This document shows positions 43,088 to 64,000 of a stretch of DNA of 64,000 nt, piece after piece; within the stretch, counting starts at the first letter, position 1, and every line of letters starts with the position of its first letter. Below the pieces are notes generated by a model. It made no database searches. It was given only the letters and a program-made list of their open reading frames with translations, and was not told where the DNA came from. The position numbers and the translations under genes are program-made. The DNA is from Chenggangzhangella methanolivorans (lineage in GTDB: Bacteria; Pseudomonadota; Alphaproteobacteria; Rhizobiales; Methylopilaceae), in the NCBI RefSeq assembly GCF_019797865.1, contig NZ_CP081869.1:4602501-4666500 (forward strand). Direction: 5' to 3'.

Positions 43088-43105
43088 CATGCTCGGAGAA
43101 CCCCT

Positions 43106-43822
43106 ATGAACGTGCTGGCTATCCAGCAGCGGTTGAAGGCGCTCGGCTTCGATCCCGGCGCGCTCGACGGGATCTGGGGCCGCCAGACCATGGCGGCGGT
43201 CAAGCGCTTCCAGACGGCCCATGGTCTTCATGTCGACGGCATCGTCGGTCAGGCGACGACCGCCGCGCTCAACGCAGCGGCGGTTCAGGGCGGCCCCGGC
43301 AAGGCCGTGCCGCCGATCCTCGAACAGGGTCAGGTCGATCCCGTCTGGCTGGTCGAGGCGCGGCGCTGGATGGGTTTGCGCGAGATCGTCGGCGCGGCCT
43401 CGAACCCGAAGATCCTCGAATGGGGCAAGGCGGCCGCCGACTGGTTCGTGAACGACGACATTCCGTGGTGCGGCGCCTTCGTGTTCGGCCAGTTCGCCGC
43501 CGTGCTGCCCGACGAAAAGCTGCCGACGAACCCGCTCTGGGCTCGCGGCTGGGCGGTGTTCGGTCGGGGGCTGAGCAAACCGTCGCCTGGCGCGGTGCTG
43601 GTGTTCGAGCGCGGCCCGAACGCTGGCCATGTCGGCTTCTACGTCGGCGAGGACAAGACACGCTATCGCGTGCTTGGCGGCAATCAGTCGAACGCGGTCA
43701 CTGAGACGTGGATCGAGAAAAAGCGGCTGCTCGCCATCCGCTGGCCGTCGACCGTAGCGCTGCCAGTCCCGCAGACCGTCGTCGTCAAGGGCGGCGGCCC
43801 GACCAGCACGAATGAGGCGTAA
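43106..43822 (+). CDS. endolysin: peptidoglycan-binding domain + NlpC/CHAP-like TIGR02594 domain
   Basis: 238 aa from ATG 43106 (GGAG 8 nt upstream). Residues 1-58 are a PG_binding_1 domain (IQQRLKALGFDPGALDGIWG, AVKRFQTAHGLHVDGIVG). Residues ~85-215 are a cysteine peptidase of the TIGR02594 type: IPWCGAFVFGQFA with the nucleophile Cys and NAGHVGFYVGE with the His. No signal peptide, so release needs a holin. Degrades murein at lysis. Confidence 0.85.
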   Translation: MNVLAIQQRLKALGFDPGALDGIWGRQTMAAVKRFQTAHGLHVDGIVGQATTAALNAAAVQGGPGKAVPPILEQGQVDPVWLVEARRWMGLREIVGAASNPKILEWGKAAADWFVNDDIPWCGAFVFGQFAAVLPDEKLPTNPLWARGWAVFGRGLSKPSPGAVLVFERGPNAGHVGFYVGEDKTRYRVLGGNQSNAVTETWIEKKRLLAIRWPSTVALPVPQTVVVKGGGPTSTNEA

Positions 43823-58333: not shown

Positions 58334-59835
58334 TCAGCTGCGCTCGCCGCCTTCGCGACGCTGCCCCTGCGGGCGCGGGCGGTTTCCGCCCGGCCGGCCG
58401 CCGCGGCGGGGCTTCTGCATGAAGGAGGCGGTCTTCAGCTCGCCGTCGCCGCGCGCGGCGGGGCGCTCGCCGCCCTGCGGCTGCGGGCGGCCGCCATGGC
58501 CGTGGGACCGGCGTTCGCCCTGGGCCTGCTCGCCCTGGGGCTGGCCGCCGTGACGGCGTTCGCCGCCGCCGTGGCGCTGCGGACGGCCGCCCTGGCGCTG
58601 CTCGCCGCCGCCGTGGCCCTGAGGGCGCCCGCCGCCGCGATTGCCGCCGCGGTTCTGCTGGCTCTTGGTCGAGGCCGCGCCTGCGCCCTCCGGCTCGGCC
58701 TTGCCGGCCTCGGAGCGGCGGTCGGTCGCCGGGATCGACTGCTTGATGAGGCGCTCGATGTCGCGGAGATAGGCGCGCTCATCGTTCGCCACCAGCGACA
58801 CCGCGATGCCGGCCGCGCCCGCGCGGGCCGTGCGGCCGATGCGGTGGACATAGGATTCCGGCACGTTCGGCACGTCGTGGTTCACGACGTGGCTGACGCC
58901 GTCGACGTCGATGCCGCGCGCCGCGATGTCGGTCGCGACCAGCACCTTGATGTGGCCGGTGCGGAACGAGCCGAGCGCGCGCTCGCGCTGCGGCTGGCTC
59001 TTGTTGCCGTGGATCGCGGCGGCGTTGACGCCGTCCTGCTCGAGCTGGCGCACGACCTTGTCGGCGCCGTGCTTGGTGCGGGTGAAGACGAGCGCGCGGT
59101 CCATGTCCGGGCCCTTGAGGATCTCGGCCAGCACGACGCGCTTGCCGGCCTGCTCGACGAACACGACCGACTGCTCGACGCGGTCGGCGGTCTTGGCCAC
59201 AGGCGTCACCGCCACCATGGCCGGGTCGGTCAGCATGGTGTCGGCGAGGTCCTTGATCGTCTTCGGCATGGTGGCCGAGAAGAACAGGGTCTGGCGGCGA
59301 TGCGGCAGCATCGGCACGACACGGCGGATCGAATGGATGAAGCCGAGGTCGAGCATCTGGTCGGCCTCGTCGAGCACGAAATGCTCGACCTGGTCGAGGC
59401 GCAGCATCTTGCCGTCGACATGGTCGAGCAGGCGCCCCGGGTCGCGACGAGGATGTCGACGCCGTTGGCGAGCTTGCGGACCTGCGGGCCGGCGGCGACG
59501 CCGCCGAACACGACCGCGATCGTGAAGTTGAGATGCGCCGAGTACGCCTTGAAGCTCTCCGCGATCTGGCTCGCGAGCTCGCGGGTCGGCGACAGCACCA
59601 GCGCGCGGCAGCCGCGGCGCACGGGCTGGCGCGGGTTCTTGAGCATGCGCTCGATGATCGGCAGCGCGAAGGCCGCCGTCTTGCCGGTGCCGGTCTGGGC
59701 GATGCCCATCAGGTCGCGGCCGGCGAGCACGGCGGGGATCGCCTGTGCCTGGATGGGAGTGGGGGTCTCGTAGCCATGCTCGGAGAGCGCCTTGAGGACG
59801 GGCGCCGAGAGGCCGAGATCGGTGAAATTGGTCAA
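58334..59835 (-). CDS. rhlE: DEAD-box RNA helicase, RhlE type, frameshifted
   Basis: ~500 aa. Q-motif region FTDLGLSAPVLKALSEHGYE, motif I AQTGTGKTAAF, Ia PTRELASQ, Ib then broken (VATRGAC instead of VATPGRL), motif II VLDEADQML, III FSATMP, IV-VI including TDIAARGIDV and HRIGRTARAG. One G is missing at the GGG run 59439-59441. The C-terminal ~120 residues are Gly/Gln/Arg-rich low complexity, an RNA-binding tail. Role in ribosome assembly or mRNA decay. Confidence 0.92.
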
Positions 59836-60179
59836 GTTTCAGGTCTTCCGGATACAGCCATAGGGCCGCGCAAGCGTCCATGCGGGCGCGCGGCTACAGC
59901 GGGTGCGTTAAGACGCGCCCCGCGTGATCTGGGCTGTCGATGATGGTTCGTAGGCGCTCGGCAGGTCCTGAAGGTCAGGCGTCACGCGGCCGCAGCGCGG
60001 GTGGTCGCTCGCAAGCGATGCGTAAGATGTGCGGGCGAACCCCGAGAAAGTCAAGCTTCGCCGCGATTTCGGGATCGTTTCCCAACGGGCGCGGGGCGCC
60101 CGCCACCTAGGCGTGCTCCCAGTTGTGCGCAAATCTTAAAGTTGCATTAACCATCTCCTCACAACCATGAGGTGATGGA
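59836..60179 (+). promoter_or_regulatory. intergenic region upstream of the AHL synthase, with SD-masking hairpin
   Basis: No gene. A plausible weak promoter for the synthase is TTGTGC (60123-60128), 16 bp, CATTAA (60145-60150). CATCTCCTCA (60152-60161) and TGAGGTGATG (60168-60177) pair at 9 of 10 positions around a 6-base loop; the right arm contains the GAGGTGAT Shine-Dalgarno of ATG 60180. The dyad could also be a LuxR-type operator. Confidence 0.55.
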
Positions 60180-60810
60180 ATGATCGAAGCGTTTTCCTGG
60201 CGCGCCGCGCATCTGGCGAAGGATGGGCTCGCCGCGCAGGCCCGTTTGCGACACAGGGTGTTCGTGGAGCGCAGGGCGCTGCCGCACGCCACTTTCGACG
60301 GCATGGAGTACGACCGGTTCGACACGCCGGCCGCCGTCTATCTCGTCTGGCGCGACGGCGGCGGCGAGGCCCGCGGGCTCATCCGGCTGCTGCCGACGAC
60401 GCGCCCCTACATGATGCAGACGTTCTGGCCCGAGATGGTGGCGGAGGGCGCGCCGCCGGTCTCGCCGAAGATCTGGGAGATCACCCGCGTCTGCGTCGAC
60501 AAGGCCGCGATCCCGCGCGAGCGCCGCGTCATTCTCCCGGAGCTGCTCTGCGGAGTCGCGGAGTTCTTCGAACTCAACGGGATTTCGGCGATGGTCGGCG
60601 TCGCGCGAGCCCATCTCGTCGAGCACTACATCCCGCAGGAAGGCATCCGCTGGCTTGGCGCGGCGGCGGAGGTCGAGGGCGAGGTCGAGGGCGTTCCTCG
60701 TTCCGACGCGCTTCATCCGGCCGACGGCCCATCTCGAAAAGCTCGGCGTGACGGGCCGGGTGCTGAATCTGTTCGGCGACGAAGACATGGCCGAGAGGTC
60801 CGCGGCGTGA
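60180..60810 (+). CDS. LuxI-type acyl-homoserine-lactone synthase, frameshifted near C terminus
   Basis: ~210 aa. Invariant LuxI positions are present: Arg24 and Phe28 (LRHRVFVE), Asp45 and Asp48 (YDRFD), Arg69 (GLIRLLPTTRPYM), Glu100 and Arg103 (WEITRVCV). Trp34 is replaced by Leu. A missing base at ~60695 joins to AFLVPTRFIRPTAHLEKLG and stop at 60810. It makes a diffusible quorum signal from AdoMet and an acyl donor. No luxR is visible in the window. The stop overlaps the next GTG. Confidence 0.9.
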
Positions 60811-62078
60811 GGGCGGACCAAGAACTGGAGTCGAGCGTCCGTTATTACGGGCCTCGCTTTCCCGCGAGCTTCGCCAGCGCGCGCGGCAGCGAAATCGTCG
60901 CCGAGGACGGCCGCAGGATCATCGATTTCCTTTCGGCCTGCGGCGCGCTCAACTACGGGCACAATCATCCGCGGCTGAAGCGGGCGGTGGCGGATCATCT
61001 CGAGGGCGACGGCCTGCTCGCCCGCGCTCGACCTCGTACGCGCCCGCACGCGATTTCATGCGCGCCTTCGAGCGCGTCGTGCTGGCGCCGCGCGGGCTCG
61101 ACCACCGCATCCAGTTCACCGGGCCCACGGGGACCAACGCGGTCGAGGCGGCGCTGAAGCTCGCGCGCAAGGTCACCGGGCGTACGACCGTGGTCGCGTT
61201 CTCGAACGCGTTCCACGGCGTGACGCTCGGCGCGCTTGCGATGAGCGGCGGACGGGGCGTGCGGGCGGCGAGCCGGGCGCTGCTGCATGGCGTCCATCGG
61301 CTGCCGTTCGAAGGCTATCAGGGCGCGAGCGCCGAAGATCTGCTGCGCTACGAGCGACAGGTCGCGGACCCCTCCGGCGGCCTCGAGCCGCCTGCGGCCT
61401 TCATCGTCGAGACGGTTCAGGGCGAGGGCGGGCTCAACGTCGCCTCGACGCGCTGGCTGCGCGCCCTGGCGGAGGTCGCGAAGCGGCTCGGCGCGCTGCT
61501 GATCGTCGACGACGTGCAGGCGGGTTGCGGTCGCACGGGTCGCTTCTTCAGCTTCGAGCGGGCGGGGATCGAGCCGGACATCGTGTGTCTCGCCAAATCT
61601 CAGCGGAATCGGCCTGCCGATGGCGATCGCGCTTGTCCGTCCCGGCATCGATCTCTGGGCTCCGGGCGAGCACAACGGCACCTTTCGCGGCAACGCGCTC
61701 GCCTTTGTGGCCGCGACCGAGGCGCTCGCGCTCTGGGAGGAGGGGCTGGTGGAGGACGCCGCGGCGCGCCGCGCGGAGGAGATCGCGGACTGGACCCGGC
61801 GCCTGCTCGCGCGCTGGCCCGGACGGGGCCTCTCGGCGCGCGGGCTCGGCATGATGTCGGGCGTCGCCTTCGCCGAGCCCGGCATGGCGGACGCCGTCGC
61901 GCGGCGGGCCTTCGAACTCGGCGTCATGATCGAGACCGCGGGCCCGAACGACGAGGTGCTGAAGCTCTTTCCGGCGCTCACCATCGATCCGGCGACGCTC
62001 GCCGACGGCCTCGGCCGGATCGCGGCCGCGGTCGCGGACGTGCTGACGGCCGGCGAGGAGGTCGGGCTGGTGGCTTGA
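60807..62078 (+). CDS. EctB-like class III aminotransferase (diaminobutyrate-2-oxoglutarate type), two frameshifts
   Basis: GTG overlaps the synthase stop (GTGA). ACGALNYGHNHPRLKRAV, QFTGPTGTNAVEAALKLARK (PLP phosphate site), FSNAFHGVTLGALAMSG, IVETVQGEGGLNVAS, LLIVDDVQAGCGRTGRFF, the Lys in CLAKS, and GEHNGTFRGNALAF closely follow EctB. Indels at ~61015-61045 and ~61600 break the frame; repaired ~424 aa. EctB makes 2,4-diaminobutyrate from aspartate semialdehyde. ectA and ectC are not adjacent, so the product may not be ectoine. Confidence 0.88.
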
Positions 62079-62262: not shown

Positions 62263-63090
62263 TCAATCCGCCCGCATCTCGTCGATGAAGGCGAGCGCGA
62301 GGGCCGCGAAACGCTCGGGCGCACTCCAGTGCGGGGCGTGCCCGAGCCCTCCTAGCCACTGGATGGCGCCGCGCCACAGGTGGTCGGCCGGTAAGGCTTT
62401 GAGATAGTCCATCGACAGGAACACGTCGGCGTCGCCCTGGACGATGGCGAGCCGCGTCGGGCCGGAGCGGAGCAGGGCGGTCTCGTCCGCGCCCTGTCCG
62501 GCGACGCCGTTTTCGATCATCAGCCGCCGGGCGCGGCCGTCTGTCCGAATCGCCGTCTCGACCGACTGAGGCGTAAGGTGCTCTTCGCCGTCGAGCATCG
62601 CGGCCGCATAGGCGCGGGCGTCGGCCTCGGAAAACTGCTCCTTGCCCGCCAGACCCATGACGGGCGTGGCCGCGAACGCGCTCTGGAGCGCCTCAAGCGA
62701 TGGTCGGATCGGCGGCGCGCCGGTGACGAGCGCCGCGGCGATGCGGGGCTCAGTCGCGAGCAGCTCCATGGCGACATGGCCCCCGAGAGACCAGCCGATC
62801 GCGATCGCTCGTTCGATCCCGATCGCGTCGAGCAGCCCGCAGATCGCCGCGGCGTAGCCCGGAAAGCTGTAGGTCCGCTCAGGTTCGGTCGCGTCGTCGG
62901 ACGCGCCATGTCCCGGAAAGTCCGGCGCGATGACCGGGAGGCCCGCTTGGGCGAGCAGCGGGATGAGCCGCCCGTAGGCTCCGGAGGACGACGAGTTGCC
63001 GTGGAGCAGGAGGACGGGCATGCCCGTGCCCTCGACAGCCCGGAAGGCGAGGCGGCCCGAAGCGAGCTCGACCGCGCGGTCGGAACTCAC
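62263..63090 (-). CDS. alpha/beta hydrolase
   Basis: 275 aa from GTG 63090, overlapping the pgi stop (GTGA), which fixes the start. [20 protein letters not shown] (oxyanion region), [13 protein letters not shown] (Ser nucleophile elbow), [11 protein letters not shown] (Asp) and [12 protein letters not shown] (His) complete the triad. Cytosolic. Substrate unknown. Coupled to pgi. Confidence 0.85.
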
Positions 63091-64000
63091 TCGGCGGCCC
63101 GGAGCTTCGCCAGATGCTCCACAAGCCCCTTGGTCGAGCCGTCGAGGCCGTCCGCGCCGGCCTCGCCCTTCACCACCGGGATCAGGCGGTTGGCGAGCTC
63201 CTTGCCGAGCTCGACGCCCCACTGGTCGAATGAGTTGATCGCCCAGATCGTCCCTTGCACGAACACCTTGTGCTCGTAGAGCGCGATGAGACGCCCCAGC
63301 GTCCTCGGATCGAGGATGCGATAGGCGATGGCGCAGGTCGGGCGCGAGCCCGGAAAGGTCTTGTGGGGCGCGAGCGTCGCGGCGTCGTCGGCGGATTTGC
63401 CGGCCTTGGTCAGGATCTCGGCCGCCTCAGCCGTGGTGCGCCCGCGCATGAAGGCTTCGCCCTGGGCGAGGGCGTTGGCGAGCAGCATCGCGTGCTGGTC
63501 GCCGACCGTCTCATGCGGCGTCGCGGCCATGAGGATGTCGGCCGGAATCACGTTCGTGCCCTGATGCATCAGCTGGTAGAAGGCGTGCTGACCGTTAGTG
63601 CCGGGCTCGCCCCAGACCATCGGGCCGGTCGCGAGCGTCACGGGCTCGCCGGCGAGCGTCACCGACTTGCCGTTCGACTCCATGTCGAGCTGCTGGAGAT
63701 AGGCCGGGAAGCGCGCGAGGCGCTGGTCGTAAGGGCACGGCGTGGGTGGCGTAGCCGCAGACGTTGCGGTGCCACACGCCGATGAGGCCCATCAGCACGG
63801 GAATGTTCCTGTCGATCGGCGCCTCGCGAAAATGCGCGTCGATCTCATGCGCGCCGTCGAGGAAGGCCTGGAAGTTTTCCGCGCCGATCAGGATCTCGAC
63901 CGAGAGCCCGATCACCGACCAGAGCGAATAGCGCCCGCCGACCCAGTCCCAGAACTGGAACATGCGGCGGTTGTCCATGCCGAAGGCGGCGACGGCTTCG
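63087..64000 (-). CDS. pgi: glucose-6-phosphate isomerase, C-terminal part, frameshifted, cut by the window edge
   Basis: Both PGI signatures are present: [17 protein letters not shown] near the right edge, and [18 protein letters not shown] with the catalytic Lys. [20 protein letters not shown] carries the base Glu. The register changes at ~63735 (ATHAV|PYDQRL). Interconverts glucose-6-P and fructose-6-P. About 300 C-terminal residues are in the window; the N terminus lies beyond 64000. Confidence 0.95.

Follow-up and report, generated by a model that had tools for sequence, protein, structure and literature searches.

In bacteria that communicate through LuxI/LuxR systems, the signals are generally taken to be acyl-homoserine lactones (AHLs). 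In Chenggangzhangella methanolivorans, a gene for a LuxI-type synthase is directly followed by one for an aminotransferase resembling EctB, which raises the question of whether the signal made at this locus is an ordinary AHL or one with a different head group. We analyzed a stretch of 64,000 nucleotides around this pair (contig NZ_CP081869.1, hereafter the window) together with related loci from other genomes. Collectively, these data establish the module as genuine and conserved, and show that the LuxI/aminotransferase/AidH-type system is rare among the sampled genomes. They further suggest, with slightly less than even confidence, a rare quorum-sensing system of the LuxI/LuxR family which would have its own metabolic enzymes and an altered signal head group, possibly derived from diaminobutyrate. 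In the open literature, we recognized no paper describing this cluster.

The luxI–aminotransferase pair and its conservation

The synthase gene (60180..60810, forward strand) encodes an acyl synthase of the LuxI family, in which positions 34 and 36 are Leu and His, and is the sole PF00765 match of the genome at E 0.001 (53 bits, above the cut-off). Downstream, on the same strand, lies the gene of an EctB-like diaminobutyrate--2-oxoglutarate aminotransferase (60807..62078), of which three open pieces match the NCBIfam model NF006733 with E-values of 4.9e-21, 2e-83 and 7.5e-46. The TGA stop codon of luxI (60808-60810) and the GTG start codon of the aminotransferase gene (60807-60809) share a GTGA overlap at 60807-60810. 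The GTGA overlap of the two genes, pointed out in an earlier note made from the DNA letters alone, is confirmed, with the qualification that both genes are frame-broken as assembled and that the overlap is peculiar to the window genome. Indeed, in all eight aminotransferase-bearing relatives, a small ORF of a single family is inserted between luxI and the aminotransferase gene, and the profile of this family lists none in the window.

An earlier search with LuxI queries in 101 genomes returned an aminotransferase match within ~1.5 kb in none of the 29 non-window loci, and the pair seemed absent; a wider scan of named genomes, performed with a four-sequence LuxI alignment and yielding 332 relatives, revealed it. 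Among the best 80 of these 332 loci, an EctB-like aminotransferase adjoins luxI in eight (L043-L048, L052 and L054), which belong to Afipia massiliensis, five Bradyrhizobium records (one of them a MAG) and two Hyphomicrobiales/Hyphomicrobiaceae MAGs. A weak aminotransferase match in L075 (29%, opposite strand) was left uncounted. The window LuxI is 55-59% identical to the synthases of these eight clusters and 47-50% identical to those of three loci devoid of a linked aminotransferase (L049-L051). Two of the eight aminotransferases are imperfect: the L044 protein, apparently truncated, matches in its C-terminal part only, and the frame of the L054 gene is broken at the N-terminal end. In a tree of 35 EctB-family sequences, comprising eight luxI-linked enzymes (window included, truncated L044 protein excluded), 17 from ectABC operons and 10 others, the luxI-linked aminotransferases, including that of the window, form one clade with a support of 100/99. 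The earlier note had named a lack of conservation in relatives as a ground for abandoning its reading; the pair proves to be conserved, and the idea of chance neighbors was rejected since the luxI–aminotransferase pair and the AidH-type gene recur across loci.

This conservation is restricted to few genomes. A profile built from the 12 LuxI sequences of the clade retrieved, from 397 genomes sampled from the order, four clear members (293-367 bits, the next match scoring 163 bits), which are the window and the already known L045, L052 and L054, and thus zero new loci. In 385 genomes sampled from the class, the window alone was found at E 1e-55.

In the relatives, the cluster is made up of luxR, luxI, the genes for the AidH-like hydrolase and the EctB-like aminotransferase, and a small GinA-like gene. 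LuxI/LuxR systems of the GinI/GinR/GinA type, among the closest known ones, occur in acetic acid bacteria. The designation "GinA-like" reflects the small post-luxI ORFs of Gluconacetobacter and Komagataeibacter, found in the same scan, whose products fall in the small-ORF profile of the clade, GinA itself being outside the comparison. These Gluconacetobacter and Komagataeibacter loci differ from the clade in that they keep Trp34 in LuxI and Trp57 in LuxR and show no AidH-type hydrolase or EctB-like aminotransferase of this kind. GinA is mentioned in PMC5908849.

Synthase, receptor and hydrolase

The 12 LuxI proteins of the clade group together with a support of 97/92 (the tree and the residue counts leave aside the short LuxI of L097 and three duplicate window loci). 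At position 34, they have Leu (nine sequences) or Ile (three sequences), whereas all 96 other synthases have Trp (84) or Tyr (12). Similarly, His36 is found in 12/12 clade members and in 0/96 others, and positions 21, 82, 143 and 170 likewise separate the clade from the others. The absence of the usual Trp34, noticed from the window alone, thus holds, Leu occupying this position. R24, F28, E43, D45, D48, R69, E100 and R103, which we take to be the LuxI residues usually counted as catalytic or conserved, are invariant in the 12 clade sequences; with the presumed catalytic residues conserved, the clade synthases may make ordinary AHLs. On the LuxI and LuxR trees, we also observed that the luxI and luxR genes of L073, a contig labelled Stygiobacter (Ignavibacteriota), are very close to those of Magnetospirillum, possibly through a binning error.

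In LuxR receptors, W57 contacts the lactone carbonyl. All 11 receptors of the clade have Tyr at this position, while 66 of the 69 others have Trp, and four of the five residues of the ligand-pocket set are kept in the clade (Y61, D70, P71 and W85), W57 being the one lost. The three exceptions with Tyr57 outside the clade (L022, L028 and L031) are each paired with a Trp34 synthase, so that W57Y alone is no proof of a new ligand. Several further LuxR positions differ in the clade, as expected of any long branch, and the argument therefore rests on the location of LuxI 34 and LuxR 57.

PMC4338825 includes W57 in a set of nine residues considered invariant across quorum-sensing LuxRs. For CepI/TofI, PMC5007513 describes Trp33 as likely involved in stabilizing both substrates and calls the loop 33-47 critical for SAM stabilization, and Trp33/34 appears in an active-site residue table for LasI/TraI (PMC9654057). 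Against this stands a docking of ExpI (PMC9784377) in which SAM meets the backbone of Trp34, so that loss of the side chain need not abolish SAM binding. From this literature and known structures, the LuxI 34/36 and LuxR 57 sites would both connect with the SAM/homoserine-lactone part of the system. The model of the Afipia LuxI homolog (pLDDT 89.9) has BjaI as its best structure match (TM 0.81), followed by RpaI, MesI, TofI and LasI; in contrast to BjaI, RpaI, TofI and LasI, the clade is without Trp34. BjaI also carries a two-Trp "indole platform", W142-W143 (described in PMC8188788), and the clade alignment has none at that place.

Convergent with the aminotransferase gene, an AidH-type alpha/beta hydrolase of the AHL-lactonase family is encoded on the reverse strand (62263..63090). 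Its start was set by eye at 63090, where it overlaps the stop of the upstream gene, the query used in phmmer being the ORF 62263-63222. The protein matches the AidH structures 4g5x/4g9e with an E-value of 3.3e-55 over residues 8-267 of 279; it is thus homologous to AidH along the chain, with the nucleophile motif and the catalytic His aligned, and the nucleophile serine motif GWSLGG and the catalytic His motif GHA occur in the clade hydrolases whose aligned sequence reaches these motifs. Among the best 80 of the 332 loci, an AidH-type homolog occurs in 11, namely the eight with an aminotransferase and L049-L051, all of which have the closest LuxI proteins. In other words, it is present in 11/11 relatives having an L/I34-H36 LuxI and in 0/69 of the remaining loci of the 80, some of which have short flanks. 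While AidH is a quorum-quenching enzyme, its window-type homolog is a constant luxI neighbor. AidH is a lactonase, an activity that fits an AHL better than a lactam. The hydrolase reaction may be of the lactonase or of the acylase type, since the AHL acylase AiiO and the related lactonase JydB share 45% identity (PMC9728292).

From these parallel changes, we infer that the signal head group is altered. A more specific version, which is possible but doubtful, is a LuxI/LuxR pair operating without homoserine lactone, the synthase acylating diaminobutyrate from its own EctB-type aminotransferase into an acyl-diaminobutyrate or acyl-lactam signal. In the most likely mechanism for an altered head group, the aminotransferase would convert aspartate semialdehyde and glutamate into L-2,4-diaminobutyrate, and the LuxI-like GNAT would acylate diaminobutyrate (or a related amine), either in place of SAM or in addition to it. 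Acylation of diaminobutyrate by LuxI is suggested because no EctA was found and a LuxI-family GNAT stands beside the EctB-like aminotransferase. The product would be N-acyl-diaminobutyrate or the five-membered lactam thereof; it would be sensed by the Tyr57 LuxR, which would drive luxI and the aminotransferase gene from the promoter box, and the AidH-like hydrolase would open, close or degrade it. The putative acylated diaminobutyrate-type signal envisaged in the earlier note gains support from the parallel changes of LuxI (W34 to L/I, H36) and LuxR (W57 to Y).

Nearly as likely as the altered head group, and likewise short of an even chance, is an ordinary AHL system with the aminotransferase as a regulated side gene. 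LuxI would then make a normal acyl-homoserine lactone, maybe with an unusual acyl chain, which the AidH-type enzyme would turn over; the aminotransferase would be quorum-controlled and its diaminobutyrate used elsewhere. The intact catalytic residues of LuxI agree with this possibility, as does the lactonase family of the hydrolase, members of the AidH family being AHL lactonases (PMC9728292), and both would speak against an altered head group. So would L049-L051, in which LuxI and LuxR are changed yet no aminotransferase is linked, a point against the diaminobutyrate reading in particular. EctB-like genes also occur in other settings, such as an Agrobacterium plasmid, where one precedes a gene for a monooxygenase of the SidA/IucD/PvdA family. 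What an ordinary AHL leaves unexplained is why LuxI 34/36 and LuxR W57 changed in one and the same clade, and why the AidH-type gene co-occurs with these residue changes in 11/11 relatives.

An unlikely third possibility places the aminotransferase on the breakdown or supply side of an AHL, where it would recycle or divert aspartate semialdehyde/homoserine after opening of the lactone by the AidH-type enzyme, creating a self-limiting circuit. The AidH-like gene and the aminotransferase gene are both in the cluster, and aspartate semialdehyde, the usual substrate of EctB, is a homoserine precursor. However, gene-family clustering of 17 loci (whose genes are unannotated) revealed, beyond luxI, luxR, the hydrolase and the aminotransferase, no family common to more than three loci, and the pocket changes would again be unexplained.

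Promoter box, remote luxR and broken frames

The earlier note overlooked the broken frames and the promoter box, and also three genes: that of the AidH-type hydrolase, the distant cognate luxR and, in the relatives, the GinA-like one. It had reported no luxR nearby. This is correct locally, but not for the genome as a whole, where the sole PF03472 match (ORF C1:1276749-1277453, ~3.4 Mb from luxI on the contig) belongs to this cluster type. In a tree of 80 LuxRs, from which two matches outside 190-300 aa were left out, it nests inside the LuxRs of the aminotransferase clusters with a support of 100/99. Among the 11 relatives, a LuxR was found in the fetched stretches of ten, and none in that of L046. 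The profile of the small post-luxI proteins also detected a GinA-like ORF (E 1.1e-5) in the 3.4-kb stretch around the remote luxR. Since this LuxR nests with those of the aminotransferase clusters and has a GinA-like ORF beside it, the cluster was apparently whole in an ancestor and later divided in the window genome, luxI, the aminotransferase gene and the hydrolase gene lying in the window and luxR and the GinA-like ORF ~3.4 Mb away.

The two parts share a promoter element. Searching for a lux box as a strict palindrome gave no site at luxI; aligning six Bradyrhizobium and Afipia luxI promoters then brought out an inverted repeat, 71-75 nt ahead of luxI. A position weight matrix (PWM) built from those six promoters only gives a score of 12.2 to a lux-box-like inverted repeat at 60105..60124, 75 nt upstream of the luxI start, which makes it the second-best site of the 64 kb. 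As two window sites score at least 12 and about two are expected at the background rate, it is the position of the box, and not the count, that is the evidence. The top site of the window (43090-43109, score 13.8) is far from the luxI–aminotransferase pair. In the relatives, the boxes lie 71-83 nt upstream of luxI, those of L045 (19.9) and L052 (17.9) both at -83. In the 3.4 kb around luxR, three sites score ~12 or more against 0.1 expected (21 in 717 kb of background loci), one of them inside luxR and a second within the GinA-like ORF in its longest form. The box at the window luxI and that at the remote luxR locus are thus of the same type. L049-L051 are devoid of this luxI promoter box (best PWM scores 1.5-4.9) and have in common a classical-looking lux box at ~-77. 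A consensus box pattern, with one match against 0.05 expected, was composed once the window site was known and is circular, a problem avoided by the PWM; over the whole genome, this pattern occurs 6 times and its reversed control 8 times, without enrichment. One of the 6 pattern sites, upstream of a gene which by eye is argD-like, was judged to be due to chance.

As assembled, neither luxI nor the aminotransferase gene has a single open frame. Judged by eye and from the NCBIfam matches, there is one frame change in luxI, at ~60690, and two in the aminotransferase gene, at ~61020-61035 and ~61600; the luxI ORF extends, in its assembled frame, to 61157. With three frame changes in two genes and a split cluster, the system could be a relic decaying in this genome, luxI and the aminotransferase gene being broken and luxR separated from them, but this is improbable. 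Core-like genes nearby are also split between frames (a DEAD-box-type helicase at 58334-59881 and a glucose-6-phosphate-isomerase-like gene at 63087-63999, both named by eye), and completeness of the genome is put at only 88.4% (contamination 4.1%), so that assembly indels are the likeliest cause; the catalytic residues and the promoter box are moreover kept.

The aminotransferase family and the meaning of the system

The substrate of the aminotransferase, presumed to be that of EctB, is deduced from its family alone. The luxI-linked enzymes are homologous to EctB over the chain and keep most family-conserved residues, including Lys274 (numbering of L137). Against the TIGR02407 equivalog cut-off of 552.2 bits, three relatives score above (564.3, 560.5 and 556.5), three just under (527.2, 522.8 and 514.6) and two incomplete ones at 427.3 and 291.4; the window enzyme was scored in pieces. 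EctB position 82, which is His in 17/17 EctBs from ectABC operons and Ala, Thr or Asn in the luxI-linked enzymes, was considered as a specificity change and dropped, as other EctB-like proteins vary there too. Unlike the EctB of the ectoine pathway, the luxI-linked aminotransferases form a separate clade, stand beside luxI and have no EctA partner that we could find.

EctB-like aminotransferases also occur apart from luxI. At E 1e-140 or better, they were found in 20 of 289 sampled genomes of the class, and an unlinked one scores above the TIGR02407 cut-off in two of the three clade genomes that lack a linked enzyme. Being closely related, these two genomes represent a single event. In both (the genomes of L049 and L050), the gene stands as a solo EctB-like gene (L134/L135) beside ABC-transporter genes, liv-like by eye, and neither ectA nor ectC has a match in the stretch. 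The third genome, that of L051 (a MAG of 3.0 Mb), shows no EctB-like match at E 1e-70. No CTG-N10-CAG box lies close before the unlinked ectB-like genes, that of L135 being 2.35 kb past the gene start, and this absence of a nearby lux box is a further point against the diaminobutyrate reading.

A coupling of signaling to ectoine synthesis or to compatible solutes, suggested in the earlier note and in keeping with the closeness of the aminotransferase to EctB (the best solved matches of the Afipia homolog are the EctB structures 9s1q and 6rl5), is already largely refuted and very improbable: EctA has a match in 0/12 genomes (about half of them MAGs, the window genome being error-prone, so that absence is not absolute), EctC, the ectoine synthase, is found in 2/12, which makes use of diaminobutyrate for ectoine unlikely, and Vibrio queries detected no ectA or ectC beside the luxI-linked aminotransferases. 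Ectoine synthase homologs (L169, L170 and L171) were observed in the genomes of L047 and L045, both without an EctA match; in that of L045, two such matches are in tandem in a single 325-codon open frame.

The altered head group, tentative as it is, bears on how LuxI/LuxR signals are searched for. A clade in which both synthase and receptor are changed at sites linked to the head group, and in which an aminotransferase and a hydrolase are retained alongside, offers a cheap and concrete test of head-group switching. If the signal does depart from homoserine lactone, signals of this type in Bradyrhizobium and related bacteria might escape standard AHL biosensors and searches based on the lactone.
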